64,000 nucleotides of DNA from Candidatus Saccharimonadota bacterium (GTDB lineage Bacteria > Patescibacteriota > Saccharimonadia > Saccharimonadales > Saccharimonadaceae): positions 157,978 through 221,977 of the forward strand of contig QJZZ01000001.1 in the NCBI GenBank assembly GCA_003246575.1, read 5' to 3'. The first letter of the stretch is position 1. Every line of letters starts with the position of its first letter. Below, one piece after another: positions 23,098 through 41,673 of the stretch. The notes beneath the pieces are model-generated. The model was not told where the DNA came from and made no database searches. It saw only the letters and a program-made list of their open reading frames with translations. Made by a program: the position numbers and the translations under genes.

Positions 23098-23157
23098 GTA
23101 TACCTCAACATGTACTAGGGATATTGTACCATAACCGGCATAGTCAACGAAGCGCAA

Positions 23158-26100
23158 TTAACGGTTTGAGAAGGCGAAGTTCAAGTTGCCAACGTAGGCG
23201 TTTGCGGTACGGCTGGCGACGACGTCGATCTTGAAGACGATACTATCTCCAGCGTTGAATCCACACGTAGATGGGTCGGACGCGCCACTCGCAACCTTTG
23301 TTTGCCAGCTCGTCACTGTGCCTGATGATACGTTGATGCTTGAGCCGCAAGAGGTTAGCCCGCTGTCCGAGTTGCGGTATACCTGGTAGCTAACTGATGC
23401 GCCACCACCATTCGTACCATCATCGGTGCGGCCCATCAGGGACGTCTGGCCAGAGTTGAAGCTCTTGAAGGTGCCGGGGAGCTGGTAGGTCACGTAGATA
23501 CTGTATGTCTGTGATGTGTTCTGAGGCGAGGTCCACTTGTAGAAGTTGTACGTTTCACCGCTACCACAGATGGTGTCTTGTCCACTCGTGCCATCATTGA
23601 TACCAAGGGTTGAGCTACATAGGTCACTCGTCATCGTGCCGATACCTGTGCCGTGCAGTACGGCGTTGGTATACTCTGGGCTGATCGTGACGATGTTGTC
23701 TGGGCTCGAGCCACAGGCACCCCAGCCGTCTGCCTCGTAACACTGCAGCTTACCAAGGGTTGTGTCGTAATACATGCTTCCAAGCAGTGCGTCGTTGTTG
23801 CTTGCGATTGGTGCAGATGCGGCTCGGTCGAGTGTGAACAGGGTCACGGCACCACCGTTGACGCCACCACCAATCTGCACGTTTGGTGTTGAGTTACTCG
23901 AGAGTGACATCGAGAAGGTGTCGACGTAGAAGGTACGCGCGACAGCGTCGTTCTGAAGGAAGTAGATGTATGGGCTTGTCGGTGCGTTGCCGTCGGTAGT
24001 GATGTAGCAGGTGATCTTGGTGAAGTCTGAGGTTGAGCTTGAGACGCTTTGCGTATTGTAGTCTGCACAGTTGACATAGTTTGACCCGCCGTCTCTCGAG
24101 TAGCGCACGAGGAATGAGTTGAATCCGGCGGTTGTGCTCGCCGCGTAAACAGTGATGCGATAGAGTGTGTTTGGAAGTGGATTAACTGACAGTTTGTTTC
24201 GAATACCGCGGAGCGAGATAGCGGGAGTGATAATCTCCGCACTGTCACTAGCGTCGTTACCGACCGATGTCGTACGAGAAACAGTCGCGCTGTTGACTGA
24301 CGACCAGTTTGCGGCGAAATTTAAACCATCGGTCACCGAGCCATCTGTCGCGTAGTTGAAGTCAGCTGCGATCGTGACACTCAGGTTATCGGCATAGAAG
24401 GTGCGCGCGGTAGCGGTTGTCTGGCGAATAAGGATCCCATTCGATGCTGTGATGCCTGTCGATGGAGTGGTGAAGGTACAGTTGACCTTGGTCCATATAC
24501 TTATCGTTGCCGTCGCTGCTACCGTACATGGGACGGATGCGTTCGAACCATTGTTCGAGTAGTAGACATTCATGTCGGTGAATGTGCCACTCGAAAGACG
24601 TACAGCGAATGAAACGTTGTATGGCGTGTTTGCAGTCAGTGCAGAGGTGAGGGTGTTTTTGACACCAATGTTTGCAACTGCTGTGGTTGTGGTTGCAACC
24701 GAACCTTGACCAGTGTTGATGTACGGTCCTGTGGTTGTGTACCTTGTGACGGTGCTCGCACCGATGGCTGTCCAGGTGGATGCAGGGAACGTCGTACTGC
24801 TAGCGCCTGCAACCTCGGCGCCCGCATCGCTGGCGTATTCGGTAACATTGCCATTGACCGAGAGAAGTGACGCCGCAGATGAGGTCTGAACACTCAAGAG
24901 CGTTCCATTGACAGGGTTGGTCGCGCTGTCACGAATTGTCAAACCATTCGTATTACCTGTATTGCTGACGACGAGCTCGGCACCACCGGCGCTTTGCAGG
25001 GTGTTGTCATAGGCTGACTGGAGAGTAGTCGAGCTCGATGCACCGGCTGCCGTCCAGTCGCTACCGTTCCAAATCATGGTAGCTGTGGTGTTTTGGCGCA
25101 TTGCGATAGTGTTACCGGTTCCGCCGTTGTTGACCGAAAGGGTGAAGTCGCTTGATCCGTTAGCTGCGGTGATGTAGACGATACGTCCAGCAGTCAGAAT
25201 CGTAGGGTCAGGAAGGGTAGCGGTTTGGCCATCGGCGCTGAATCCGACAATGATAGCTGCGGAACTATTCACCGAACTTGAGGTAATAGTACAGCTCGAT
25301 GCGACAAGCGCGCCGCTCGCGAAACAGTTTGCGTCGTTTGTCGAAGTTGAGAATGTCGGTGTGTTGAAGATAACGAGGCCGCTGACACCAGTGCCGGTAC
25401 CGACGCCACCGAGAAGGTTTAGGTTACCACCGTTTGCATTTGTGAGGCCGCCAGTTCCGCCTTGGATGGTAATAGCGCCACCTTGACCGAAGCCGTTGCC
25501 GGTTGAGCCGACGATAGTCAGCTGACTGCCAGCAGTGTTGGCAGCAGTCTGTGCGACGCTAGTGATGGTGGTGCCGGTAGCTGCAGTACCAAGTGTCAAG
25601 CTAGTGCTGGTGATGGCGGTTGACGCACTACCGTCCGCTTTGCCGATCGTGAGTGAGGTTGAGTTGGCTGCACCAATACTCAGAGCGCCGGCTGATGCAA
25701 CGTCGAACGTTGATGCCTGGAACGTGCTGGCAATACCAGTGCCGTCGATATTGAAGCTTGCAGCGTTTTGGACGCTGGTGCCATTTTGAATAAATCCTTC
25801 AGAGGTGCGACCACCGAGCATGCCGGCATTGAGAGCGTATGGCGTTGAGCTGAGACGCTTCATAGGGAGCATTTCACCGTCACCACCACAATCAGCGGTG
25901 AAACTGGTCGAGATTGTACAACTTGTAGTGTTACCGATGTTGACACTCAGATAGAGCGTGTCTTGGTTCCAGTCTATCTGGCTTGCAAATGGGTTGATGC
26001 TACCAAGTTCAACGCTAAAGTAGCCATTGCGCACGGTGACGCCCTGGCCTGCAGAATTCAACCAATTTTCTGTCCACTGCAAACTTCCGGCAGGGGAGCC

Positions 26101-26343
26101 GGTGGTGTTACCTGCGGATTGTCCGTCACCATCCTGATAGATCTTGAACTCGACGTTATAGAAACCATCTGCCGCAGTCGCGCCAGAGCTTGTCAATAGT
26201 CGACCCTGAAAGTTGATACGCTGGTTGATCCCAGGTGCAGCATTAACAGGGGCAGTCAAAGATGCCAGAACAACAACAAACAGGGCCAATAAAAGGCTAC
26301 CCGCAATCATTGTGCGCAGTGCACGAAAAACACTAATAGTCAT
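23158..26343 (-). CDS. Secreted fibre-like surface protein with tandem beta modules
   Basis: 1061 residues. Signal peptide (TM stretch about 10-33, cleavage near VNAAPG). The N-terminal domain INQRINFQGRLLTSSG with FYNVEFKIYQDG and later STPYALNA is a domain common in surface proteins of these genomes. Then come coiled or beta-helix-like repeats (SIGAANSTSLTIG), and two successive modules of about 150 residues, each with an ending of the type TARTFY(A/V)D, looking like jelly-roll carbohydrate-binding domains. A further beta domain with Cys pairs ends the protein. Located 60 nt upstream of the giant adhesin and probably co-transcribed. Role in attachment is inference. Confidence 0.85.
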   Translation of the reverse strand: MTISVFRALRTMIAGSLLLALFVVVLASLTAPVNAAPGINQRINFQGRLLTSSGATAADGFYNVEFKIYQDGDGQSAGNTTGSPAGSLQWTENWLNSAGQGVTVRNGYFSVELGSINPFASQIDWNQDTLYLSVNIGNTTSCTISTSFTADCGGDGEMLPMKRLSSTPYALNAGMLGGRTSEGFIQNGTSVQNAASFNIDGTGIASTFQASTFDVASAGALSIGAANSTSLTIGKADGSASTAITSTSLTLGTAATGTTITSVAQTAANTAGSQLTIVGSTGNGFGQGGAITIQGGTGGLTNANGGNLNLLGGVGTGTGVSGLVIFNTPTFSTSTNDANCFASGALVASSCTITSSSVNSSAAIIVGFSADGQTATLPDPTILTAGRIVYITAANGSSDFTLSVNNGGTGNTIAMRQNTTATMIWNGSDWTAAGASSSTTLQSAYDNTLQSAGGAELVVSNTGNTNGLTIRDSATNPVNGTLLSVQTSSAASLLSVNGNVTEYASDAGAEVAGASSTTFPASTWTAIGASTVTRYTTTGPYINTGQGSVATTTTAVANIGVKNTLTSALTANTPYNVSFAVRLSSGTFTDMNVYYSNNGSNASVPCTVAATATISIWTKVNCTFTTPSTGITASNGILIRQTTATARTFYADNLSVTIAADFNYATDGSVTDGLNFAANWSSVNSATVSRTTSVGNDASDSAEIITPAISLRGIRNKLSVNPLPNTLYRITVYAASTTAGFNSFLVRYSRDGGSNYVNCADYNTQSVSSSTSDFTKITCYITTDGNAPTSPYIYFLQNDAVARTFYVDTFSMSLSSNSTPNVQIGGGVNGGAVTLFTLDRAASAPIASNNDALLGSMYYDTTLGKLQCYEADGWGACGSSPDNIVTISPEYTNAVLHGTGIGTMTSDLCSSTLGINDGTSGQDTICGSGETYNFYKWTSPQNTSQTYSIYVTYQLPGTFKSFNSGQTSLMGRTDDGTNGGGASVSYQVYRNSDSGLTSCGSSINVSSGTVTSWQTKVASGASDPSTCGFNAGDSIVFKIDVVASRTANAYVGNLNFAFSNR

Positions 26344-26480
26344 ATTTGTTTCGTGTTTTTTGTTGTTATTTTAAAAACTCTTTTGTAATCTCGTTTTTGT
26401 CTCACACAAAATTACACTATGTATTATACCTGCTTATGGTAAAAATACAAGATTGATTACAGAGTAGCTGTGGATAACTT

Positions 26481-28517: not shown

Positions 28518-29624
28518 TTAGTAAGTAGGTGTACAGATGTACGTTAAGGTTGTTGTGTAGGTACCCGCGAGCTGGTTACCAGCGACGTTGACCATATATG
28601 ACGCAGTGTATTTCTGACCAGCAGATGGACCTGTGCTTGATGCAACAGTTTGAACACTTGTGTCGTCGAATGTGAAGGTGCCGTCTGTGGCAAATGGTGC
28701 AGTTGCGTCACCAGTGTAGTCGCCAGCGTCTGCGGCAGGTGATACATCGGCGCCGAAAGCAAGAGTCGTGTTAGCGACGACGTTCATGCCGAACTCACTT
28801 TTACCGATAGTTGGTGTTGCAGGAGTTGTCATAGCAGCGATTGAGTTTGACCCATTGGTTAGTGTTGCACCCTCAACTGTCACGACGTAGCCAGAGAGGC
28901 CATTTGTGCTGGCGGCAAACTCAGATGTTGCTGTCGTGGTTGCAGTTGGCGAGAAGACACCGAAGTCAATCGTACCGGCCGTAACTGTCTGGCAGGTTGC
29001 GTCAACAGTCGTGCCTGTACAGAAGACAAGCGTTTCAGGCATGTAACCAGTGAAGTCGATTGGATTTGCTGTTGCGGCAGTAACAGTACCGTCATCCACG
29101 GCGCCTGTACCGTCAGAGGCTGAATAAGTTGTTATGCGTACGTAAAATGTGTAGTTTGCGGTTGATGGATTCTGAACTCCGTTGAGAGTAATGTGTATAG
29201 CGGCACCTGTTGGATTCGCAGGAGTCGGACGGGTGATGTACACAGTGTTTGCTGTTGGTGCCGGTGCGTCGCCGCCGTTACCAATCGTGAAGCCCGTTGC
29301 GCCACTACCGGTGTCATCTCCGTAGCTTACACCTGATGCACTTAATCCTGTTGGTGTGTTGCATGTTCCCGATGCAGCATCACAGTATTCAAATTTAATA
29401 GAACCTATATTTGTTGTTGTACTTGGTACAGTGAAGTCGAATGCGTGATTGACGACACCACCAGGCGTTGATCCACCGACCGAGCCGACAGATTGTAATG
29501 TAAGTGATCGTGGCTGCATTTGTGCCGCGAACACTGATGAGCCTCCCAAAAGCGGTACGACACTCGCAACCGCCATCATGATACCCAAAATAATGTGTTG
29601 TGTTTTTGTTTGTTTTCCCCTCAT
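28518..29624 (-). CDS. Secreted surface protein of a local paralogue family
   Basis: 368 residues, intact member. Signal peptide (about 1-33, ending SVFAA), then SLTLQSVG, GSTPGGVVNHAFDF and a Cys pair (EYCDAASGTCNTPTG), a middle junction (TGYMPETLVFC) and a C-terminal beta domain ending in AGTYTTTLTYICTPTY. The C-terminal GTYTTTLTY resembles the end of WxL domains (GTYxxxITW). It lies 8 nt before the DUF916-like gene, so they are one operon. Extended -10 (TGATACAAT, 29634-29639) ends 9 nt before the ATG. Confidence 0.78.
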   Translation of the reverse strand: MRGKQTKTQHIILGIMMAVASVVPLLGGSSVFAAQMQPRSLTLQSVGSVGGSTPGGVVNHAFDFTVPSTTTNIGSIKFEYCDAASGTCNTPTGLSASGVSYGDDTGSGATGFTIGNGGDAPAPTANTVYITRPTPANPTGAAIHITLNGVQNPSTANYTFYVRITTYSASDGTGAVDDGTVTAATANPIDFTGYMPETLVFCTGTTVDATCQTVTAGTIDFGVFSPTATTTATSEFAASTNGLSGYVVTVEGATLTNGSNSIAAMTTPATPTIGKSEFGMNVVANTTLAFGADVSPAADAGDYTGDATAPFATDGTFTFDDTSVQTVASSTGPSAGQKYTASYMVNVAGNQLAGTYTTTLTYICTPTY

Positions 29625-29720
29625 AACACAATAATTGTATCACAAGCATAGGCACAATGTCAACAACAAACTCATGCTTTTTCATCTGTAAAACCACATT
29701 TTTTCGCTAAAAATTATTGC

Positions 29721-32378: not shown

Positions 32379-33107
32379 TTAGTAGGTGGCAGTCACGAGA
32401 AGGGTTTGCGAGATGTTGTAGACACCACCCGGTGTCAGGGGCGAGACGTTGGCGAGAAATGATACGGTGTACGTGGTTTCGCCGGAATCTCCCGGGGCAG
32501 ACGCGATGACATCACCGTCGAAATATTGGTAATGATTCGCTACATCATAGCCACTCGCGACGCTCCCGTTGCCGAAGTCGCCATTGTCGAGATTGGCGCC
32601 GAGCGATACCGGGCTAGTATTGGCAACGAGATTGATGCCATATTGTTCGACGCCAACCTGAGACACGTCTGGGGCTGTCAAGTGCGCAAGGGTATGTGTG
32701 CCATTCGTCGGGCCGTCACCAAAGATCTGTACGATATAGCCGAATGTCGTGTAATCTTTGACGGTGAAGTTGATCGTTGTCGTCGAGGCTTGCGTGGTAC
32801 TGAAGGTACCAAAGTCTGCTCCGACTGCATCGACGCTAAACGAAAGCACGGGATCTTCGCTCGTTTTGGAACCGGCGTTGATCTGGTAGTTAGGCGAAGC
32901 AGAGTTGCCAACGCCGAGGTCGCCAGTGCCGCTCGTCAGGCCGTAGGTAGCAGATTGAACACCGACCGCATCGCTTGTGCCGATGCTCGTTTCATTGAGT
33001 TTGTAATTCGAAGACTGACTCGTCTCAGCACTGGCGTAGGGCATGGCCAAAAACATCAGACAAATGCTGATGACACCAAACTCCGGCCACAACTTGCGTA
33101 GTCGCAT
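32379..33107 (-). CDS. Secreted surface protein, distant paralogue
   Basis: 242 residues from ATG 33107. Signal peptide (about 7-28, cleavage near SAETSQ), SSNYKLNETSIGTSDAVG, then the C-terminal domain (VDFGTFSTTQAS type region, YVVQI-like GYIVQIFG, ending in GGVYNISQTLLVTATY). It shares the C-terminal domain plan with the other family members but lacks their Cys-containing N-domain and the terminal ICTP motif. The frame is open upstream to 33290 but without a plausible signal peptide, so the shorter start is chosen. Confidence 0.75.
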   Translation of the reverse strand: MRLRKLWPEFGVISICLMFLAMPYASAETSQSSNYKLNETSIGTSDAVGVQSATYGLTSGTGDLGVGNSASPNYQINAGSKTSEDPVLSFSVDAVGADFGTFSTTQASTTTINFTVKDYTTFGYIVQIFGDGPTNGTHTLAHLTAPDVSQVGVEQYGINLVANTSPVSLGANLDNGDFGNGSVASGYDVANHYQYFDGDVIASAPGDSGETTYTVSFLANVSPLTPGGVYNISQTLLVTATY

Positions 33108-33199
33108 GCTGCTATTGTTGGACAGCGTAAGCTTTTTTGCAAGTTTTTGTTGCACAAGGTATAGTACATACATACTAATTAGGTGGCGAACAAAAGATA

Positions 33200-34234
33200 A
33201 TGGAACAAAACAATCCGAACACTTCGGGTGAATCGCAAAGCCCGAAGCCAATGGCGCTGAAGGTTGATGAGAATCAGGCTGTCGCAACAACTGTCTACGG
33301 TGGCGATTCGAGTGTCAAAGAAACGACCAAGCGTCGTCGTATGACCTATCGTCCTTCGCACAAAGCTACCTTCGTAGGTCTTGCTGTCATCTCTGTATTT
33401 TTGCTCGCAAATGTCGCCGGATTGTGGTTCTTGCTGCGAAGCCAGGCAGATACGCAAGAGCAGCTCGTTAACAACGGTGTTACATTGAGTACGGACACGT
33501 TGTCGCAGCTTGGTGTGAATCGTGATTCAGTCGGCGAGGCGTCGGAGCTAACTATCGGTCCCGACACGACCTTTCGTAGCGGTGTCACAATCGGCAACGA
33601 CGTTAGCATTGGTGGAAGCCTTCAGCTCAACAGTGACTTCGTAACGGGGTCTGCAAAGATCACCAATCTGCAAGCTGGTGAAACTCAACTTGAGTCGCTC
33701 AATGTGAATGGTGATGGCACAATCACGACCCTGAACCTGCGCAATGATTTGAATGTTGTTGGAACGACGCGTCTACAAGGCCAGGCAATCTTTTCGCAGC
33801 TCGTGACAGTCAACAATAATGTGAATATTGCTGGTAACTTGTCAGTTGGTGGTATATTCGCCGCCAAGAGTTTTGAGGCGAGTACACTGACTGCCGGCCA
33901 ACAGCTGACTGTCGGCGGGCATATCGTTACTTCTGGAAGTGGGCCGACCTTTGCGCAAGGCTCTGCGCTCGGTAGTGGCGGTACGGCATCGGCAAACGGT
34001 ACAGACGCTGCGGGCACCATATCGGTCAACGTCGGTACAGGTGCTGGAACTGGGTTGATCGGGACTGTGACGTTTAATCGCGCCTATGCGGCAATGCCAA
34101 GCGTCGTTGTATCGCCAATTGGAACGCCAATGCCGGGACTCTACGTTAATCGCACGACAACTGGCTTCAGTGTCAGCACAACGAGTGCGCTGCCTGTTGG
34201 CAGCTATGCGATTGATTTCATCGTAATGCAATAG
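33200..34234 (+). CDS. Membrane-anchored beta-helix/tail-fibre-like protein
   Basis: 344 residues. Polar N-terminus of about 55 residues, one TM helix (about 57-80), then short imperfect repeats (TIGNDVSIGGSLQLN, LNLRNDLNVVGTTRLQGQ, NVNIAGNLSVGG) typical of a right-handed beta-helix or bactofilin/tail-spike shaft, and a C-terminal beta domain (TVTFNRAYAAMPSVVVSPIG) resembling a phage tail-fibre tip. AGGTGG lies about 15 nt upstream of the ATG. It is the only plus-strand gene in the surface cluster and converges on the ATPase operon. Confidence 0.75.
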   Translation: MEQNNPNTSGESQSPKPMALKVDENQAVATTVYGGDSSVKETTKRRRMTYRPSHKATFVGLAVISVFLLANVAGLWFLLRSQADTQEQLVNNGVTLSTDTLSQLGVNRDSVGEASELTIGPDTTFRSGVTIGNDVSIGGSLQLNSDFVTGSAKITNLQAGETQLESLNVNGDGTITTLNLRNDLNVVGTTRLQGQAIFSQLVTVNNNVNIAGNLSVGGIFAAKSFEASTLTAGQQLTVGGHIVTSGSGPTFAQGSALGSGGTASANGTDAAGTISVNVGTGAGTGLIGTVTFNRAYAAMPSVVVSPIGTPMPGLYVNRTTTGFSVSTTSALPVGSYAIDFIVMQ

Positions 34235-34245
34235 GCAACGTCCGC

Positions 34246-34509
34246 TTAGACGTTCACGAATAGGTAGACGAGGTTATCTCGCACAGTGACGAGGCCACTT
34301 TCGACGTCGAATGATGTGATGGTTTCACCGTTGATGATCTCGACCTTGCATGGCTCGAGCATCGAAAAGAAATCTGCGTGCCCGGGCAAAATCGAAAAGT
34401 CGCCAACGGCATTTTTGGCGGAAAACGCGCTGGCTTCGCCGTCATAGTAGACATGAAATGGCGCGCGCGCGATAACTTTTATGCGCTCTTCAAAATCAAG
34501 CTTGGCCAT
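34246..34509 (-). CDS. atpC: F1-type ATPase epsilon subunit, beta-sandwich only
   Basis: 87 residues from ATG 34509, overlapping atpD by 14 nt (an ATG two codons earlier is possible). The sequence matches the N-terminal beta-sandwich of epsilon: GDFSILPGHADFFSMLEPCKVEI, then a short end VRDNLVYLFVNV. The usual C-terminal two-helix domain, which inhibits ATP hydrolysis in many bacteria, is absent; full-length epsilon is about 130-140 residues. Last gene of the operon. Confidence 0.8.
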   Translation of the reverse strand: MAKLDFEERIKVIARAPFHVYYDGEASAFSAKNAVGDFSILPGHADFFSMLEPCKVEIINGETITSFDVESGLVTVRDNLVYLFVNV

Positions 34510-35974
34510 TCGCATCTGATTCCTGACTTGGTGCGCTTGCGTCAACTGATTCAGCTGGCTTGTCTCCTGATGCCTGTGCGGCGGCTGGGTCGGATGAAGC
34601 AAGAATCGCTTCGATGCCACTCAATGTTTCTTCGAGTGTGTAGTATTCGCCAGGTTTACCGGTGAACTTTTCGGCAACGGCAAAGTCTTGCGAGAAGAAT
34701 TGAATAAGCTTCTTGGCGTTCTGGTAGTCGGCACGGTCGGCTGGACTTAGCTCGTTTTCACCAACGATAGCGATGATGTTTTTGAGGCTGTCGTATTTCT
34801 GCATGATTGCCTGAACGCGCTCGGCGAGTCGATAGTGTCGCTCGCCTACGATGGTTGGCGTCAGTAGGGAACTGGTCGTCTTGAGGAGGTTCACGGCCGG
34901 GCGAATACCTTGCTCGGCAACAGAACGGTCGAGCACGAGGACCGAGTCGAGCTGCTGAGAGATGGCTTGCACCGCAGGGTCGGAAAGGTCGTCAGCCGGT
35001 ACGTAGATGGCCTGGACACTAGTGATAGTACCCTGGGCGGTTGAGCTGAGTCGGTCTTGGAGACGACGTAAATCTGAGAAGACCATTGGGCTGTAGCCAC
35101 CTTCAGACGGGATCAATCCGAGGTTAGTTGAAAGCTCGGTCATAGCCTGGACGTGACGGTAGATGTTGTCGACGAAAAACAGAATGTCTTTACCTTCTTC
35201 GTCGCGGAAATACTCCGCTGCGGTTGCCGCGGCAGGGCCGACCATACTACGAATAGCTGGTGTGGCGTCCATCTGGCCAAAGAACATGACGGTGTTTTTG
35301 AGCACGTCAGTGTCACGGAGTGTTTCGTAGAGTTCGTTACCTTCACGGATACGTTCACCGACGCCGCAGTAGATAGACAGGGAATTGCTCTTGGACTCAG
35401 CTTCGCTGCCGTTGGCAGGTTTCTTCGACATGGTGACGTTGTGGATCATTTCCATCGTGAGGACGGTTTTGCCGACACCGGCACCACCGATAACGCCAAT
35501 TTTGCGTCCCTTGACGAACGGTGTCAAAAAGTCGATCACTTTGAGGCCCGTTTCGAGCAACTCCAGCTTTTGGCTGTTGCGGTAGCTCTTGGTGCCACTT
35601 GGTACGGTGATCGGACGGAGATTTTCGGTAATCGCTTCGCCTTTGTCGAGCGGCTCGCCGGTAGCGCTAAAAACGCGTCCCATTGTAGCGGCGCCAACCG
35701 GCACGCTGACTTTTTGGCGCGTACGGAGGACGCGTTGACCGCAGGCGACAACTTGATCATTATTGAGGTTGAGACAGACGGCGTTCGAGCCGCGGAAGAA
35801 GTTCACTTCAAGCAGGACATGTTCGATGCCTTCGATTTTGAGGAGCTCTTTGATCTCTGGAGTTTTGTCGAGAATTTCCACCTCGACCGTCAGACCGCGA
35901 ATGGCGCGAACAAAGCCGACAACCTCTTCGAATGTTTCTTGCTTTACTGGCATTGATGGTTCGGTTTTGCTCAT
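34496..35974 (-). CDS. atpD: F1-type ATPase beta subunit
   Basis: 492 residues. Catalytic features are kept: P-loop GGAGVGKT, the catalytic Glu/Arg pair in GVGERIREGNELY, EYFRDEEGKDILFFVDNIYR and YVPADDLSDPA. The usual DELSEED lever is changed to NELSPAD, and the canonical APATTFAHLD segment is changed to AVQAISQQLD. The last roughly 35 residues are an Ala/Ser/Asp-rich tail not found in typical beta subunits. ATP hydrolysis or synthesis at three sites is expected. Start overlaps atpG by 4 nt. Confidence 0.93.
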   Translation of the reverse strand: MSKTEPSMPVKQETFEEVVGFVRAIRGLTVEVEILDKTPEIKELLKIEGIEHVLLEVNFFRGSNAVCLNLNNDQVVACGQRVLRTRQKVSVPVGAATMGRVFSATGEPLDKGEAITENLRPITVPSGTKSYRNSQKLELLETGLKVIDFLTPFVKGRKIGVIGGAGVGKTVLTMEMIHNVTMSKKPANGSEAESKSNSLSIYCGVGERIREGNELYETLRDTDVLKNTVMFFGQMDATPAIRSMVGPAAATAAEYFRDEEGKDILFFVDNIYRHVQAMTELSTNLGLIPSEGGYSPMVFSDLRRLQDRLSSTAQGTITSVQAIYVPADDLSDPAVQAISQQLDSVLVLDRSVAEQGIRPAVNLLKTTSSLLTPTIVGERHYRLAERVQAIMQKYDSLKNIIAIVGENELSPADRADYQNAKKLIQFFSQDFAVAEKFTGKPGEYYTLEETLSGIEAILASSDPAAAQASGDKPAESVDASAPSQESDANGQA

Positions 35975-36834
35975 ATCATACTCCCGGCTTGTTCTCGGCG
36001 TTTCTTTTTGATACTAACGAGGACCTCGCGCAATCGGCGGTCATTTTCGGCACGTTTGGCACGGTGAAATTCCATCGTATAGTCGCGCAGTAGATCGGAC
36101 GCGCGGTCTTCGGCGACGGTCATGGCGTTGAATCGGCTGGCTGCCTGGGCGAGTCCCGACTGCAAGATAGCCTGAGCGAGCGCCAGACTCATCATACTGG
36201 CCTCCATCATGTAGGCGATCTCCTCGATGGACGGCTCAAAGATGGTATCAAAATCGGTCATCGTGCCTTCTTCGAGCTCGTCGGTCATTGTCTTGATGCT
36301 CGATACGAGATCCATACGACGCACTTCTTGTTGGCCGAGAGATAGGTACTCTTCAAAGTAGACGGTGATCGTCTTGTAGGGCATAAGGACGTCGATGACG
36401 GGCGCAACGTCGATGTAGACGTCGCTTTCTGGTACCTGAAACAGGCGAATATACGGGATTTCACGCTGCGAGAGTTGATTGGCGCCGTGGCTACCAAGCA
36501 CGACGATATCAGTATTCGACGGGTCATATTCGGTCTGCATACTTTCGATCATACGTTGGTCGAGGTCTCCAGAAAGTCCGGCTTCGGCAGAGAGCAGGAC
36601 GAGCACTTTGCGGTCGAGATCACCGATGCCATCGCGTTCGGTGATGCGTTTGCGTGGATCGATGCGGAGGGAGGTATAACGCTCCCAGAGCAAGTTGAAG
36701 AATTCTTGGCCGGTTTGGGCGTTATTCTTCACCTTGGCAACCTGAGTACTTGCGAGGCTTTCAAAGACGTTTGTCAGGTCTTTGAGTGTGCCGATGCTGA
36801 CCATGTCTTTTTCAACTAAGTTCGCACGTCTCAT
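35971..36834 (-). CDS. atpG: F1-type ATPase gamma subunit (divergent)
   Basis: 287 residues. The N-terminal helix (MVSIGTLKDLTNVFESLASTQVAKVKN) corresponds to the RI..IK...KIT.AM..VA..K helix of gamma; LLSAEAGLSGDLDQRMI replaces the TDRGLCGG...N motif; the C-terminal long helix ends in LRDYTMEFHRAKRAENDRRL. Strongly diverged but with the expected length and two-helix coiled-coil plan, and in the usual place between alpha and beta. It forms the rotor shaft. ATGA overlap with atpA. Confidence 0.85.
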   Translation of the reverse strand: MRRANLVEKDMVSIGTLKDLTNVFESLASTQVAKVKNNAQTGQEFFNLLWERYTSLRIDPRKRITERDGIGDLDRKVLVLLSAEAGLSGDLDQRMIESMQTEYDPSNTDIVVLGSHGANQLSQREIPYIRLFQVPESDVYIDVAPVIDVLMPYKTITVYFEEYLSLGQQEVRRMDLVSSIKTMTDELEEGTMTDFDTIFEPSIEEIAYMMEASMMSLALAQAILQSGLAQAASRFNAMTVAEDRASDLLRDYTMEFHRAKRAENDRRLREVLVSIKKKRREQAGSMI

Positions 36835-38318
36835 TTTTTCTTCTCCTGCTCAGGTTCGGCTGGAGCAGTTTCAGTCGGTACCGGCGCGGCTGCTGCCAGT
36901 TGTTGGGCTGCGAATTTTTCAAACAGCTCAGCTTCGATATGGTCGAAGTCATCTTCACTCTTAACTTCTGGCGCTCGCTCGACAACGGCTTTTTTGAGCC
37001 CGGCAACATCGATTGATCGATCATCTTCGCTCTTCATGATGGTCTCAAGCATGAGCTGCTGTTCAACCAGCGAGAAGCGTTCTTCTGGCGGTTGGCCGAG
37101 AGCTTGGTAGAGGTGTTTACCGCGAGCGAGGTCGCGACGAGTTTCGCTCGAAAGCTGGCTTGAGAAGTGGGAGAATTCATCAGCTTGGTGATAGCTTGCC
37201 AGCGATTTGAAAAGTGCAGTTGATAACTGCTTTTGTCTGGTGGTTTGCGCCTGGCCACCGACACGTGAGACCGAGAGACCGGCGTTGACAGCTGGGCGGA
37301 CGCCTTTGCGGAAGAACCCAAGATCGAAAACGATCTGACCGTCGGTGATAGACATGATGTTTGTCGAAAGGTAGCCAGTGATGTCGTCATTCGGCGTCAA
37401 TACAACCGGGAGGGCCGTCAGTGTCTTTTCATTCGTCAGCAAGCGACCAGCACGTTCGAGAAGGCTCGAGTGGGTGTAGAAGATATCACCTGGGTATGAA
37501 TCGCGTCCCGGGTCAACCTCCTGGAGGAGCGACAATTGTCGGTAGGCCTCAGCGTGCGAAGAGAGGTCATCATAGATAATGATCATGTCACGATTGTCAT
37601 TGACCCATAGGTATTCAGCCATCGCACAGGCGGCGTAGGGCGCAATGTAGCTCTGGGTGAGGCTATCGAAGATGTTAGCGAGCACGACGATCGTGTGTTC
37701 CATGGCACCGGACTCGTTCAGCTCACGAAGCAGGCGTTCGACGTCAACCTTGCGTTTACCGATCAGGACATAGACGACGATACGTTCCGTGCCTTCCTGT
37801 TCTGCACTCAACTGTCCGAGAAAGGTACTTTTACCAGATTTGCTATCGCCAAGAATAGCGATACGCTGGCCCAGGACAATAGGGAAGAAGCTGTCGACGG
37901 CCGAGACGCCACTCGCGAGTTGTTCATCAAGGACTTTGCGGTCCATGATGCCTGGAGCTGGGTTGAAGATGCCTGAACTATGAGTAGCCGAGATCGGGCC
38001 TTTATCATCGAGTGGGCGACCGAGTGGGTCAACAACGCGGCCGACGAGTTCGCGTCCAACGGGCACCATCAAGTCGTCAAACTCGACGACAGCCATAGCG
38101 CCAATGGCGAGCTCTTCGGAGTCGATGTTGTAGAGGACCGCGTGATCGGCGTAGGCTTCACGTACCATGCCGCGTTGGCCATCTTCGAAGAGGATCTGGG
38201 CACCAATCTGTACACCCTCAAGCCCTTTGACGGTAATGATGAAGCGGTTGACTGATACGACGACACCAGTAAGATTGCCGGCTTCGACGAGTTTTTGAAA
38301 TGCGGCGTTATCAAACAT
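36831..38318 (-). CDS. atpA: F1-type ATPase alpha subunit
   Basis: 495 residues. P-loop is GDSKSGKST in place of the usual GDRQTGKT; MSITDGQIVFDLGFFRKGVRPAVNAG and the arginine finger region SVSRVGG are present. The N-terminus begins close to the beta-barrel, so the roughly 20-residue helix that normally binds subunit delta is shortened. C-terminal roughly 40 residues are charged with an EKKK end. Divergent from standard alpha but clearly of this family. Overlaps atpH by 8 nt. Confidence 0.92.
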   Translation of the reverse strand: MFDNAAFQKLVEAGNLTGVVVSVNRFIITVKGLEGVQIGAQILFEDGQRGMVREAYADHAVLYNIDSEELAIGAMAVVEFDDLMVPVGRELVGRVVDPLGRPLDDKGPISATHSSGIFNPAPGIMDRKVLDEQLASGVSAVDSFFPIVLGQRIAILGDSKSGKSTFLGQLSAEQEGTERIVVYVLIGKRKVDVERLLRELNESGAMEHTIVVLANIFDSLTQSYIAPYAACAMAEYLWVNDNRDMIIIYDDLSSHAEAYRQLSLLQEVDPGRDSYPGDIFYTHSSLLERAGRLLTNEKTLTALPVVLTPNDDITGYLSTNIMSITDGQIVFDLGFFRKGVRPAVNAGLSVSRVGGQAQTTRQKQLSTALFKSLASYHQADEFSHFSSQLSSETRRDLARGKHLYQALGQPPEERFSLVEQQLMLETIMKSEDDRSIDVAGLKKAVVERAPEVKSEDDFDHIEAELFEKFAAQQLAAAAPVPTETAPAEPEQEKKK

Positions 38319-38784
38319 GGGCGAGCCTCTCGATCAACTTGTCGCGATTGGCGAGGAGACGATCGCGATATGACCAGTCATGAAATCCGGTGTCAGTTTT
38401 GGCGATAATGCCGCCGAGAATGCGCGTGTTCCAGCGAAATTCAACGAGCATGGCTGGATCAATATTTTCGCGTACCCACGTCACCAAGCTGGCTTGAACG
38501 GACGCTGGGGGAGGTCCGGCAAGTGTCAGCGTCATCGAAGGCGCCGATGCGGCGATATCTGCAAGATTCTTGATCATGTCCGTGAGGAGCTGCTTGCTAT
38601 CGAGCCACTGGCGAATCATGAGGCTTGCGCCTTCGGAGAGCATTGGTTGTTCATTTTGGTAGGTGACTGAGCGCTTGGCAGCATTTTCGTATTGGTCCAT
38701 CCAGCTACGATAGCGCTCGACTTCAGTGCGAAGACGCATGACATCTTGGCGAGATGCGATGGTTGCAGGCAGTGTCAACGTCAT
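38311..38784 (-). CDS. atpH: F1-type ATPase delta-like subunit
   Basis: 157 residues. The C-terminal part (about 105-150: VRENIDPAMLVEFRWNTRILGGIIAK and DWSYRDRLLANRDKL) resembles the end of the OSCP/delta subunit, which links the stator stalk to the top of F1. The N-terminal helical bundle is recognisable only by position. Shorter than the typical 175-180 residues. ATGA overlap with atpF, 8-nt overlap with atpA. Confidence 0.72.
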   Translation of the reverse strand: MTLTLPATIASRQDVMRLRTEVERYRSWMDQYENAAKRSVTYQNEQPMLSEGASLMIRQWLDSKQLLTDMIKNLADIAASAPSMTLTLAGPPPASVQASLVTWVRENIDPAMLVEFRWNTRILGGIIAKTDTGFHDWSYRDRLLANRDKLIERLAHV

Positions 38785-39641
38785 TTCTGAACTCCCTTGA
38801 GGAGCTCGTCCTTGTGCGAGTTGAGTAGTTCGGTGAGCGATGCGGTTTGTGCGCCGAGGTCGATGTCGCTGCCGAGTGCATCGGTCAGGAAGGCAATAAC
38901 CGTATCGGCTAGTTCAGCTTCAAGCTTGCCGGAGAGGGCTTGGCGGCGAGCTTCGATGCTTGCTTGGAGTTTCGCCTCTGCTTCTTGCTGTTTTTCGATG
39001 TAGCTTTTCTCGAGCTCAGCAAGTTTGGTTTCGAGTTCTGCTTCGGTTTTAGCGAGTGATGCCTCGCGTTTTGCGAGTGCGCCTTCGAGTGACTTTTGGT
39101 GCTCGAGTAGCTGGGCTTCGAATCCGGCCTCTCGCTTTTCATATTCAACACGCTGCGTCTGTAGGTCGTGTTCGGTTTTAGCTGCTTCTTCTTCGAGCGC
39201 TGCATCGAGCTTGGCTTGATGATCCTCAAAGTGCTTTCGAAGAGACTGTTGGTGCTCAGCGATTTCTTCGGCTGTTGAGCCCATGATGCCAGCGGCTTTG
39301 TTTCGGATAGAATTGAGTACTTCGTCATAGCGATCCTGTTCTTCGTGAGACACATTTTCGCGTAGTTTCTCGAGTGACTGATTGAGACGGTCGGTCGTTG
39401 AACTGAGATTACGGTCGAGCTCGACAGCCGTCTTTTTGACGGCTTCTTGGTACTGCGCGCGGGCTTCTTGCATCAATTGGTCACGAGTACTCTGGGGTAG
39501 GAGGTCGATTGCCGGTGTGGCAGGCGGGGTGTTTTTGTTGCGAGCGTGTGCCCTGAAATGCTGCACAGCAAGGGTAATAACCGCTCCGAGAATGAAAACG
39601 TTGAGATACAGAATTATTTGAATTACCCACCCTAAAATCAT
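38781..39641 (-). CDS. atpF: b-like stator stalk subunit, greatly lengthened
   Basis: 286 residues from ATG 39641 (GTG 39644 also possible; AAGGA upstream). One N-terminal TM helix (about 4-27) followed by about 230 residues of almost unbroken, Glu/Lys/Ala/Gln-rich coiled coil, and a short helical end. Position before the delta gene and topology fit subunit b, but a usual b subunit has about 155-170 residues, so the stalk would be roughly 100 residues longer. Stop/start sharing (TGATG) with the upstream membrane protein shows that they are translated together. Confidence 0.72.
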   Translation of the reverse strand: MILGWVIQIILYLNVFILGAVITLAVQHFRAHARNKNTPPATPAIDLLPQSTRDQLMQEARAQYQEAVKKTAVELDRNLSSTTDRLNQSLEKLRENVSHEEQDRYDEVLNSIRNKAAGIMGSTAEEIAEHQQSLRKHFEDHQAKLDAALEEEAAKTEHDLQTQRVEYEKREAGFEAQLLEHQKSLEGALAKREASLAKTEAELETKLAELEKSYIEKQQEAEAKLQASIEARRQALSGKLEAELADTVIAFLTDALGSDIDLGAQTASLTELLNSHKDELLKGVQK

Positions 39642-40483
39642 CACATTGTCCTTAGTATAAAGTATATTGCCGCAATTGAGGCAGCAATAATCACAATAAT
39701 CACCGCAGAAAGTTGTACGACGTCACGATAGACCGCTGATTGCGAGAGCGGGTTACGTCCAACGGAAATAATTGAGCTACGAATCATAGAGAAGATGATG
39801 ATCATAACGACCACGAGCATGATGATGAAGATGACGGCGCTTAGAATGATAGGGAGTGGCTCAACGGAGCGGCCGGCAACAGCATTTGCGATATTTTGGA
39901 TAGCGGCAGGAATGAGGGTCCGTTCAGGAGTCTGGTAGTGGTATGAGACATTGATGAGTACGGGAACACTCCCGAGCTTGACGGTTGTAGGCGTGCCATT
40001 CTGATCGACGGTTTGCTCGGTAGTTACGGTCATATCAGCTTGTGCGACGCCAATGACTTTTGCGTTGGTGCTCACTTTCATGCCAACGCCGGCGATAGGT
40101 GATGCCGTGACTTGGTCACCTTCTTTGATGTCGCCATTGATGTCGCTCGCGAGAACGGTCATTGAACCGCCTGTTGCAACCTGGACTTCGCTTGAGCTAC
40201 CATTGCCAAATACCAGGGCTGAACTGTTGTCGCTAACGACGACGCCGAGGAGGTTGTTGGTGTTGTCGACGGTTGCTGCTTGTACAGTGTCAGAGGAGTC
40301 GGGGATTAAACTCACGAGTGATCCGATGGCAACATCATCGCCTGTAGTATAGCCTTGAGAGATTGGCGTTGCTGCCCGTGCGAGAGGCGCGAAAAAGAGT
40401 ACCGCAAGGAGAATCGAGACTGCGATATATCGGAACTGTAGCGTTGCTACACGGCTAGTGGCAATTCGTGACGGTACCCTCAT
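39641..40483 (-). CDS. Secreted-domain protein with C-terminal two-helix hairpin (first gene of F1 operon)
   Basis: 280 residues. Signal peptide (about 20-37, cleavage near ARAATP), a beta-rich extracytoplasmic domain of about 130 residues with internal repeats (YTTGDDVAIGSLVSL; DINGDIKEGDQVTAS), a linker, then two TM helices (about 208-230 and 250-275) joined by a short loop SVGRNPLSQ. Two helices joined by an R(N/Q)P loop is the plan of ATP-synthase subunit c, and the topology would also match, but no Glu/Asp lies in mid-membrane. It stands where a and c genes normally stand and is coupled to atpF. A c-like rotor part or an unrelated anchor are both possible. Confidence 0.7.
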   Translation of the reverse strand: MRVPSRIATSRVATLQFRYIAVSILLAVLFFAPLARAATPISQGYTTGDDVAIGSLVSLIPDSSDTVQAATVDNTNNLLGVVVSDNSSALVFGNGSSSEVQVATGGSMTVLASDINGDIKEGDQVTASPIAGVGMKVSTNAKVIGVAQADMTVTTEQTVDQNGTPTTVKLGSVPVLINVSYHYQTPERTLIPAAIQNIANAVAGRSVEPLPIILSAVIFIIMLVVVMIIIFSMIRSSIISVGRNPLSQSAVYRDVVQLSAVIIVIIAASIAAIYFILRTM

Positions 40484-40560: not shown

Positions 40561-40659
40561 ATGAATCGTGACCAAGGTTTTACGACGCTTGAAGTGATTG
40601 TTGTGGCGGCACTCGTCATTATTATGATTGTGCTCGCTTTCAGCATCCAGTACCTCTAG
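40561..40659 (+). CDS. Mini prepilin-like peptide (32 residues)
   Basis: Starts MNRDQG, then FTTLEVIVVAALVIIMIVLA and ends SIQYL. It has all parts of a class III prepilin N-terminus: charged leader ending in Gly, Phe at +1, Glu at +5 and an uninterrupted hydrophobic helix, but the protein then stops, leaving a mature peptide of about 26 residues with no globular head. A leaderless promoter directly precedes it. Its TAG is interlocked with the stop of the convergent LysM-CHAP gene (CTAG). It might be a real mini-pilin or the remnant of a longer pilin gene. Confidence 0.6.
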   Translation: MNRDQGFTTLEVIVVAALVIIMIVLAFSIQYL

Positions 40660-41333
40660 TAGATGAAGCGCAGGCCGGCCGAAGAGATTGTTCGTGTATG
40701 AACAACGCCGATGCCGCCATTGTAGTTCATTTCAGAAACAGTGATGGTGCCGTTGTCGTGCACTGACTCGACGTACATCACATGTCCAGGGCCCTCTGCG
40801 ACGGCGCCGACGCGAGGGCTCGAGCCGGTTGTATAGCCACGTGCAGCTGCATTGGCAACCCATTGTCCACCATTACCAAGCATGTTCGGTAGGTCGGGGC
40901 GGCGATTTTTGACGTACCATGTACAGTTGCCCCACGCGTAGGTATTGCCTGAGCTGGTTGCTCGGTAGTTCGTTGTAGGTGTTGATGACGGTGAGGTGGA
41001 CGGCATGTTATACGTTGCAGTGCCGTAGTTTGAAATTTCCTGCTGATAGGCTTCAAATCGTTGCGGCAACTGTTCATCTTTCGCGGGGATACGAATCTTA
41101 TCGCCGACATGAATAAGATCTGGATTGCCGATAAAGTCGTTGGCATTGAAAAGATCAACGTAGGTGACATTGTATTTTTCAGCGATTGCCGAGAGGTAGT
41201 CGCCCGGTTGGACAGTGACGATGATGGTACCGTCAGTTTCGGTTGTGGGTGTGTCTAGGGCGTAGGTCGATGAGCCGAAGAGCGCAAAAATAGCACTGGC
41301 GCCAAGCGCCAAGAGGCCATACTTGAAATTCAT
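40656..41333 (-). CDS. LysM-CHAP peptidoglycan amidase/endopeptidase
   Basis: 225 residues from ATG 41333 with a strong AAGGAG 7 nt upstream. Signal peptide (cleavage near STYALD), a LysM domain (VTVQPGDYLSAIAEKYNVTYVDLFNAN...IHVGDKIRIP), a Ser/Thr-rich linker and a C-terminal CHAP domain with the catalytic Cys in WGNCTWYV, His in GPGHVMYVE and Asn in SEMNYNG. It should bind peptidoglycan and cut peptide stems or cross-links; in an epibiont this may act on its own wall or that of the host. A 5' leader with a strong hairpin separates it from its promoter. Confidence 0.9.
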   Translation of the reverse strand: MNFKYGLLALGASAIFALFGSSTYALDTPTTETDGTIIVTVQPGDYLSAIAEKYNVTYVDLFNANDFIGNPDLIHVGDKIRIPAKDEQLPQRFEAYQQEISNYGTATYNMPSTSPSSTPTTNYRATSSGNTYAWGNCTWYVKNRRPDLPNMLGNGGQWVANAAARGYTTGSSPRVGAVAEGPGHVMYVESVHDNGTITVSEMNYNGGIGVVHTRTISSAGLRFIY

Positions 41334-41673
41334 ATTCTTCTCCTTATTGAACTGATTGCAGCGTTTGAAATATAAGATGACGCAACCAGGATGTGATTTT
41401 TTCAAAGTCTCGCGGCTTTGAAAAAACACAAGTTTGAGCTTATGAAAATGGTTATGTAGTGTCAACACAAAATTGCGAAAAAAACCAAAAAACAGAGGAA
41501 AAATAGTGGTGTGAAATTCGCAACGACGCTATATGTATAGTGTCGGATAAACGTTGTACTCGGTGCAACGCGTGTCAAGCACCAAAGGGGTGTAATTTTT
41601 GCAGTTTGTAAGCATTTTTTAGGCCAGGTGTATACTGAATTTTACACGACACTAACTAACAAAGGAGGTGAAT
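41334..41673. other. Intergenic regulatory region, 340 nt
   Basis: No gene seen. It holds the long leader of the LysM-CHAP gene with a -35 TTGACA (41460-41465) and a -10-like TAAGCT (41437-41442), 17 bp apart, on the minus strand, and on the plus strand a TATACT (41631-41636) before the next gene, which has a perfect AAAGGAGGTG. The centre (about 41470-41600) shows nothing recognisable. Confidence 0.5.
41397..41426 (-). promoter_or_regulatory. Perfect hairpin in the LysM-CHAP mRNA leader
   Basis: TTTTTTCAAAG (41397-41407) pairs fully with CTTTGAAAAAA (41416-41426), 8-nt loop. It sits about 65 nt before the start codon in the predicted 5' leader and could be an attenuator or stability element. 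Confidence 0.6.

Follow-up and report, generated by a model that had tools for sequence, protein, structure and literature searches.

A second F1 gene set with a probable acid-less relative of subunit c in a Candidatus Saccharimonadota genome

F1-type ATPase heads occur in non-respiratory systems as well as in ATP synthase, and what they drive there has been a standing question since the Mycoplasma sets were described (PMC3369863). In the available part of that paper, the type 2 and type 3 (F1-X0) sets of Mycoplasma have no delta or b but include a protein with 12 transmembrane (TM) helices, and a protein 5 with a signal peptide, two C-terminal TM helices and, in one of two predictions, a mostly outside body; its authors took the X0 proteins to have no homology to Fo. 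For the M. mobile gliding motor, the accessible text of PMC11864180 gives MMOB1610 and MMOB1650 as suggested partners of gamma. Omnitrophota also have non-respiratory F-ATPases, whose beta clusters with that of Ca. Saccharimonadia and whose alpha clusters with the Mycoplasma types (PMC10066038, 2023, available sections), so that a second F1 of Saccharimonadia has already been touched on in print. Here we describe an operon of seven genes at 34246-40483 of a 64,000-nucleotide stretch (the window; contig QJZZ01000001.1, positions 157,978 to 221,977) of a Candidatus Saccharimonadota genome (931 kb, 4 contigs, 98.6% complete). A first-pass annotation, made from the letters alone, had read it as an F1-type operon without a and c subunits, headed by a secreted two-helix protein, and had proposed a repurposed ATP-driven device at the cell surface.

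Southlakia epibionticum can dispense with its ATP synthase genes, by the portion of PMC10633639 at hand, and a second F1 type is not mentioned in the accessible text of five Patescibacteria papers (PMC6031116, PMC8080830, PMC12281837, PMC12592800, PMC8386444). Our searches of open-licence full texts turned up no description of an acid-less c subunit with an outside domain. What appears to be new here, judging from sequence comparison, is that the membrane part of such a set can be named: it is an acid-less c with an outside head.

The F1 gene set of the window and the ordinary ATP synthase operon

Seven open reading frames (ORFs) run head to tail on the minus strand from 40483 to 34246, with successive overlaps of 4, 4, 8, 4 and 4 nt and then 14 nt, the last taking epsilon to start at ATG 34509; this start gives 87 aa, the median of its relatives, the longest epsilon frame beginning at 34620.

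39641..40483, minus strand: g1, putative secreted c-like rotor subunit, 280 aa, with signal peptide, outside beta domain and C-terminal c-like hairpin (homologues in 57/57 loci; model)
38781..39644, minus strand: b-like stalk, 287 aa, one N-terminal TM helix and a long coiled coil (hydrophobic N-terminus, weak profile link)
38311..38784, minus strand: delta-like stator subunit, 157 aa (family profile against ordinary operons)
36831..38318, minus strand: alpha, 495 aa (Pfam 2.7e-64; GDSKSGKS, GLSVSRVGG)
35971..36834, minus strand: gamma, 287 aa (Pfam 1.2e-25; strong relatives in 131/294 genomes of the class)
34496..35974, minus strand: beta, 492 aa, catalytic motifs retained (Pfam 6.9e-63; motifs; tree)
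34246..34509, minus strand: epsilon, 87 aa, N-terminal beta-sandwich only (Pfam 2.6e-11; lengths of relatives)

Across 58 aligned rows, beta retains GGAGVGKT (Walker A) and GERIREG (the region of the catalytic Glu), while alpha retains a Walker A and the arginine-finger motif GLSVSRVGG. With the roles that we take these motifs to have, the conserved residues suggest that the complex is still an ATPase. The epsilon relatives are short (n = 95, median 87 aa, range 82-135) when set beside ordinary epsilons (n = 16, 134-154 aa), and therefore leave no room for the C-terminal helical domain, which inhibits hydrolysis. Pfam gave no more than a hint of delta (OSCP, E 0.2) and no fitting match for b, because both are too diverged; a family profile of delta nonetheless picked up a frame in the position of delta in 12 of the 20 ordinary operon loci (best 3.2e-6, none worse than E 0.01), and a profile of b matched three of the 20, weakly (best E 0.002). 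An N-terminal hydrophobic helix is present in 97 of 99 b relatives. Inspection of the operon's frames revealed no a subunit, no ordinary c and no other multi-TM gene.

The genome holds a single gene each for a and c, and two for gamma. The sole a and c lie on another contig (C4) in a complete ordinary operon with the order I-like, a, c, b, delta, alpha, gamma, beta, epsilon, and this c contains ALGRNPEKGNDIRTMMILAIAFTDALAI, with the acid at the expected place. We rooted a 79-row beta tree on alpha; its 25 ordinary Patescibacteria rows formed one clade (99/100), recovered in 100% of 200 bootstrap trees, with the window set outside it. Support for the set from the window's class was modest (72/52), and the rows from other classes did not form one clade; the beta of one locus (L219), for which the wrong ORF had been picked and the branch length was 10, had been excluded from this final tree. 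In a first quick tree, six odd rows, of the giant-c and ABC-linked types described below, shared a branch (97) with the ordinary rows.

Much of the first-pass annotation is thus borne out: the gene order from g1 to epsilon with its short overlaps (4-14 nt, seven minus-strand ORFs) and the retention of the P-loop and Glu of beta. It had called for a genome-wide search for a second atp operon with atpB and atpE, and that operon exists, with F1 genes of its own. It would have given way to a and c genes elsewhere with no second F1 set and with these F1 subunits inside normal CPR ATP synthases; the C4 operon and the beta tree show the opposite.

The first gene, g1, and its relation to subunit c

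The membrane part of the set is g1, whose predicted structure (pLDDT 90, from 54 sequences) consists of a signal helix, a beta domain at residues 41-182 and a hairpin of 35 + 33 residues.

40373..40483, minus strand: g1 signal peptide, residues 1-37 (model helix 11-30; cleavage after ARA placed by eye)
39938..40363, minus strand: g1 outside beta domain, residues 41-182, phage appendage/capsid-cement-like fold (VIA-align)
39647..39859, minus strand: g1 c-like two-helix hairpin, residues 209-279 (c homology, model)
39749..39760, minus strand: g1 GRNP loop, residues 242-245, as in ordinary c (invariant in aligned g1)

GRNP is invariant in 36/36 and in 54/54 aligned g1 proteins and occurs in 102 of 107 unique g1 hairpins; an RNP loop close to the C-terminus was the criterion for picking the hairpins, which is why all of them have RNP. 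The set leaves out four g1 matches with no visible hairpin (L162 and L181, at contig ends, one in L182, and L183). Ordinary c proteins (n = 29) carry their acid at +18 after the P of the loop in 27 cases and at +16 and +17 in the other two. Among the g1 hairpins, D or E was found at +18 in 0 of 107 and in the first 24 of the 33 pre-loop residues likewise in 0 of 107; between +11 and +30 it was found in 11.

A hidden Markov model (HMM) of 29 ordinary Patescibacteria c proteins, run against 7,900 ORFs, placed seven true c proteins on top (mostly its training set), followed by two giants of 820 and 664 aa (6.7e-14 and 6.6e-12) and then by g1 proteins. The top 100 ORFs included 89 of g1 type, with four others besides, compared with 130 of g1 type overall, this label standing for the RNP loop pattern plus length; single g1 proteins from the class scored from E 0.003 to above 1. 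The giants each head an F1 operon.

L123 5999-8461: giant secreted c-like protein, 820 aa, Ig-like repeats (by eye), acid-less c hairpin at the end
L113 7706-9700: giant secreted c-like protein, 664 aa, Ig-like repeats (by eye), acid-less c hairpin at the end

NCBIfam labels the C-terminal ends of both giants as subunit c (9.8e-9, 5.6e-7), and its c model gave 0.0076 for the single non-class g1 that was tried. Against the c profile, hhalign gave 98.8% for the giants (two rows) and 94.0% for the g1 hairpins from outside the class; the reversed-profile controls gave 1.6% for the giants, 1.4% for non-class g1 and 0.2% for class g1. Pfam, run on 36 g1 proteins, touched PF00137 in one only, at E 0.29.

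Structural comparison with VIA-align agrees. The five best matches of the hairpin were ATP synthase c subunits (Z 9.0-8.5), with more c down to 7.4. The outside beta domain matched a C-terminal fragment of phi29 gp12 (Z 14.2, 112 aligned, rmsd 2.1) and further phage cement and head-fibre proteins (Z 14.2 to 8.5 overall). A PHROGs search returned nothing for g1.

By these sequence comparisons g1 is a homologue of c that has lost the ion-binding acid and gained a signal peptide and an outside domain, and we hold it very probable that the window contains a genuine second F1 set whose membrane subunit derives from c, is acid-less and is exposed at the surface. The first-pass annotation had described the first gene as a secreted two-helix protein; its signal peptide and C-terminal hairpin stand, but the GRNP loop of c and the homology to c had been overlooked. 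Its statement that the operon is without a and c holds for a and for an ordinary c, although the first gene is itself a c homologue without the carboxylate.

Distribution, carrier genomes and neighbouring genes

We searched 294 genomes of the window's class with the window gamma. It matched 170 at E 1e-5, and the matches separated into a strong group at E ≤2.4e-29 (131 genomes) and a weaker one beginning at 5.3e-15, which was taken as ordinary gamma. Fetching 60 class loci from strong and weak matches gave 57 of the window type, two ordinary operons and one of another type. g1 was present in all 57, confirming the conservation with the operon that the first-pass annotation had asked about, and all seven genes were recognised in 47; g1 was the first recognised gene in 55, and in the other two (L075, L080) it lies downstream of epsilon yet is still linked.

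The gamma profile also finds relatives beyond the class, and related operons are spread over the phylum. Among 16 non-class loci whose beta scored nearer to the window type than to the ordinary type, g1 was present in 10; of the six without it, three are cut by contig ends (L108, L109, L110), two are the giants (L113, L123) and one is ABC-linked (L112). In a last set of 16 loci, g1 was recognised in 15 (not in L251). A further 60 named loci were fetched by g1 itself, and all 49 with gamma and beta in view are of the window type, their g1 being present by construction; these named loci (L124-L183) partly overlap the class loci (L036-L095), so the counts are not additive. The named g1 relatives come mostly from Candidatus Saccharibacteria or from entries named 'bacterium', with a few from other Patescibacteria. 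On one closed chromosome (CP025011.1) the complete operon is accompanied by an ordinary gamma, an ordinary a and two more g1 genes with no F1 in view.

Variants of this arrangement were also seen. g1 genes with no recognised F1 in view occur, in CP025011.1 and other genomes, at L171 8953-9807, L173 8911-9768, L174, L175 (two, adjacent), L176 and L178, and may be alternative heads for the same motor. In one family (f109; L104, L106, L107) two different g1 genes flank a single F1 operon, the second of them lying on the other strand, downstream of epsilon, which makes mixed rings possible. Two window-type operons per genome were seen in six genomes (G210, G118, G011, G199, G056, G001). A Giovannonibacterium protein of 1741 aa (L183 4570-9795) matches g1, with no hairpin recognised. 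A third F1 type (b, delta, alpha, gamma, beta, epsilon) was found in two distant Patescibacteria, at L081 2564-10928 (G072, of the window's family) and L112 1974-10944, with no a, c or g1 in view; upstream of it lie genes that we named by eye as an ABC-type ATPase, a MacB/FtsX-like permease and a large fibronectin/Ig-like protein.

Thirty-eight carrier genomes were tested for the a gene: 17 have exactly one and 21 have none, the latter including three single-contig genomes (99, 94 and 95% complete). A window-type locus was fetched for 18 of the 21, with g1 or its hairpin recognised in 17 (not in G626), and the remaining three (G501, G596, G611) were counted as carriers by gamma match alone; of the 17 with an a gene, two (G427, G625) are of the giant-c type and one (G507) has cut loci only. 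In one family (f72) no a gene was found in 16 of 17 genomes tested. In some Patescibacteria the window-type operon may be the only F-type machine.

Two kinds of gene often accompany the operon on its downstream side, and the window holds a second member of one of them.

33200..34234, plus strand: convergent neighbour, TM-anchored fibre-like protein (40/51 class loci with at least 1.5 kb downstream)
32379..33161, minus strand: secreted surface protein of a family frequent beside the operon (38/51 of the same class loci)
28521..29639, minus strand: second member of the secreted family (34% identity, E 7.9e-12)

Each of the two was also found in 37 of 40 named loci and neither in seven ordinary loci, and the three matches to the secreted family in the window genome all lie within the window locus. 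The model of the convergent protein has one TM helix and is confident over the last 100 residues only; its C-terminal domain weakly resembles tailspikes and H-type lectins (VIA Z ≤7.2), and 'lectin-like' is offered as a lead for this modelled domain. In distant Patescibacteria, the giant-c operons have next to them a secreted protein with relatives among the frames that adjoin class operons (best E 8.8e-8), although these secreted neighbours gave no match to the window's own frames of at least 100 codons at E 1. What the first-pass annotation called an adhesin cluster next to the operon is a cluster of secreted-protein genes, often conserved with the operon. Within this cluster, downstream of the operon, 15988-26370 encodes very large secreted-looking proteins (2390- and 1070-codon frames). 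Directly upstream of the operon, 40656-41468 encodes a LysM + CHAP cell-wall enzyme, which was seen in one of 53 class loci with enough upstream flank.

Possible mechanism, alternatives and comparison with known systems

We put a probability of roughly 60% on the explanation that fits these observations best, namely a second rotary complex derived from F1Fo that cannot move ions and instead turns a crown at the cell surface. In such a complex, alpha3beta3 would hydrolyse ATP and rotate gamma and epsilon, as the conserved catalytic residues suggest; gamma and epsilon would hold a ring of g1 hairpins by the GRNP loops, much as they hold c in ATP synthase; and delta and b, whose conservation points to a machine that must resist torque, would immobilise the head. 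With no ion-binding acid in the ring and no a subunit beside it, the work would leave the cell mechanically, by turning an outside crown of beta domains, probably with the fibre and secreted proteins encoded nearby, so that the cell could attach to a host surface or move over it. Taken by its parts, ATP-driven turning of the g1 crown seems to us somewhat better than an even bet, and its use in host contact or motility a tentative suggestion that falls short of even odds. The surface device proposed in the first-pass annotation thus stands as regards the second F1 set and the surface-exposed membrane part, with function at the surface as the conjectural portion.

What can be read from the sequences themselves is the gene set, its conservation, the homology to c, the lost acid and the lack of a; the ring, its contact with gamma, the rotation, the stator role of b and delta and the use at a host surface are what we infer from them, and several observations weigh against the proposal. 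With no a subunit, nothing obvious would keep b beside the ring. The case for homology between g1 and c rests on intermediates: the window g1 has no Pfam or NCBIfam match to c, class g1 alone gave a weak hhalign result against the c profile (64.8% over 43 columns), and the Gly-rich motif of c helix 1, present in the giants, is gone from class g1, so that packing and copy number may differ. In the first quick tree the giants' F1 genes grouped closer to the ordinary rows than those of the window did, and the giants are therefore a related type, not the same type. The Z of 8-9 for the hairpin does not reach the value (~13) under which the tool calls for caution, and its c matches are interspersed with unrelated helical chains (BBSome 8.4, seryl-tRNA synthetase 8.0), which makes the structural match support, not proof; the first 50 rows of a plain Foldseek search with the g1 model held beta-domain or weak matches and no c subunit. 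A genome of the window's own genus (G216, 30 contigs) has no strong gamma of this type, so the operon is not universal. As to the neighbours, the convergent gene was not found in 11 and the secreted family in 13 of the 51 class loci, and neither was found in 11 non-class loci.

Four other explanations were considered. That the set is an ordinary ATP synthase with its a and c genes elsewhere would fit the one a and one c that the genome does hold, but these sit in a complete operon with its own F1 genes, the ordinary betas form a clade that excludes the window set, 21 of 38 carriers have no a gene and g1 has no ion-binding acid; we consider this extremely improbable, and the idea of scattered synthase genes was rejected on the second operon, the beta tree and the a-less carriers. 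If g1 had an unusual ion site and worked with an a-like partner that escaped recognition, the complex could be an ion pump, which would account for the retained loop and hairpin of c. We consider this very improbable: none of the 107 hairpins has an acid at +18 or in the first 24 of the 33 pre-loop residues, 11 have one between +11 and +30, and the operon has no multi-TM gene. More credible, though still quite unlikely, is an ATP-driven secretion or gating device in which F1 would operate a pore made of g1, the exit route for the surface proteins encoded next to it. Type III secretion is powered by F1-like ATPases, and the secreted family is frequently found beside the operon; yet the window's secreted neighbours and g1 itself have N-terminal signal-like sequences of their own (by eye), and the retained stator genes would be needed by a rotary motor, not by a plain unfoldase.

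The fourth is a Mycoplasma-like type 2 or type 3 F1-X0 ATPase, sharing descent with those of mycoplasmas and Omnitrophota. It draws on the layout of protein 5, which by its description in the available part of PMC3369863 agrees with that of g1, and on the placement of Omnitrophota beta with Ca. Saccharimonadia and of their alpha with the Mycoplasma types (PMC10066038, as far as its accessible sections go). On the other side, the Mycoplasma sets as there described have no delta or b and do have the 12-TM protein, whose model (MSC_0624) found no match in the window genome at E 10; elsewhere it matched in one of five genomes (0.002, far below cut-off), as it also did in five of 14 control genomes. 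The Mycoplasma epsilon model had no match in six genomes. Window alpha scored 400 bits with the general alpha model and less with the Mycoplasma models (312 with MMOB1660, cut-off 600; 253 with MSC_0619, cut-off 520), as did window beta (441 bits, against 367 with MSC_0618, cut-off 570, and 331 with MMOB1670, cut-off 850). The cut-offs of the ordinary NCBIfam models were also missed (atpA 390 of 484, atpD 441 of 463 bits), as were those of the Alternate F1F0 (N-ATPase) models (alpha TIGR03324 345 of 750.5, beta TIGR03305 396 of 752 bits). We regard common descent of this kind as unlikely, and the likeness to Mycoplasma types 2 and 3 drawn in the first-pass annotation is set aside on the retained delta-like and b-like genes, the unmatched 12-TM model and scores below those of atpA and atpD.

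Naming the membrane part makes the question of what such F1 heads drive directly testable. The surface rotor, if real, could plausibly power the contact of these bacteria, which live on other cells, with their hosts, and would show a route from an ion-driven to a purely mechanical rotor. Counts of atpA and atpD in Patescibacteria genomes can also overstate ATP synthesis. We are just short of evenly divided on a wider proposal, that across Patescibacteria an ATP synthase has been turned into a new kind of motor, an ATP-driven surface rotor that has no ion site in its c-ring, needs no a subunit and bears secreted, phage-fibre-like or adhesin-like heads of ~140 to >700 residues. If this is true, protein 5 in the unexplained X0 sector of Mycoplasma would likewise have been rebuilt from c.

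Compared with the F1Fo ATP synthase, the window set has alpha, beta, gamma, epsilon, delta-like, b-like and c-derived subunits in near-usual order and with the catalytic residues, but differs in having no a, a c-type subunit that is acid-less and carries a signal peptide and an outside domain, a short epsilon and a beta outside the ordinary clade. With the Mycoplasma type 2 and type 3 sets it shares the status of a second, non-respiratory alpha/beta/gamma/epsilon set without a in small host-bound bacteria, and g1 shares with protein 5 the signal peptide and two C-terminal TM helices, a comparison by described layout alone; unlike these sets it has delta-like and b-like genes, and its membrane protein can be traced to c. 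The 'symbiotic' F-ATPases of Omnitrophota, by their description in the available sections of PMC10066038, are likewise non-respiratory F1 homologues of putatively host-associated nanobacteria, but adjoin type-4a pilus genes; the only pilus-type frame noticed in the window by eye, with no systematic search, is a prepilin-like one at 2-769, more than 33 kb from the operon. With the C-terminal domain of phi29 gp12 and the base proteins of capsid cement and head fibres, finally, the outside domain of g1 has a fold in common; the likeness is one of fold only, and in g1 that domain is fused to a c-like hairpin.

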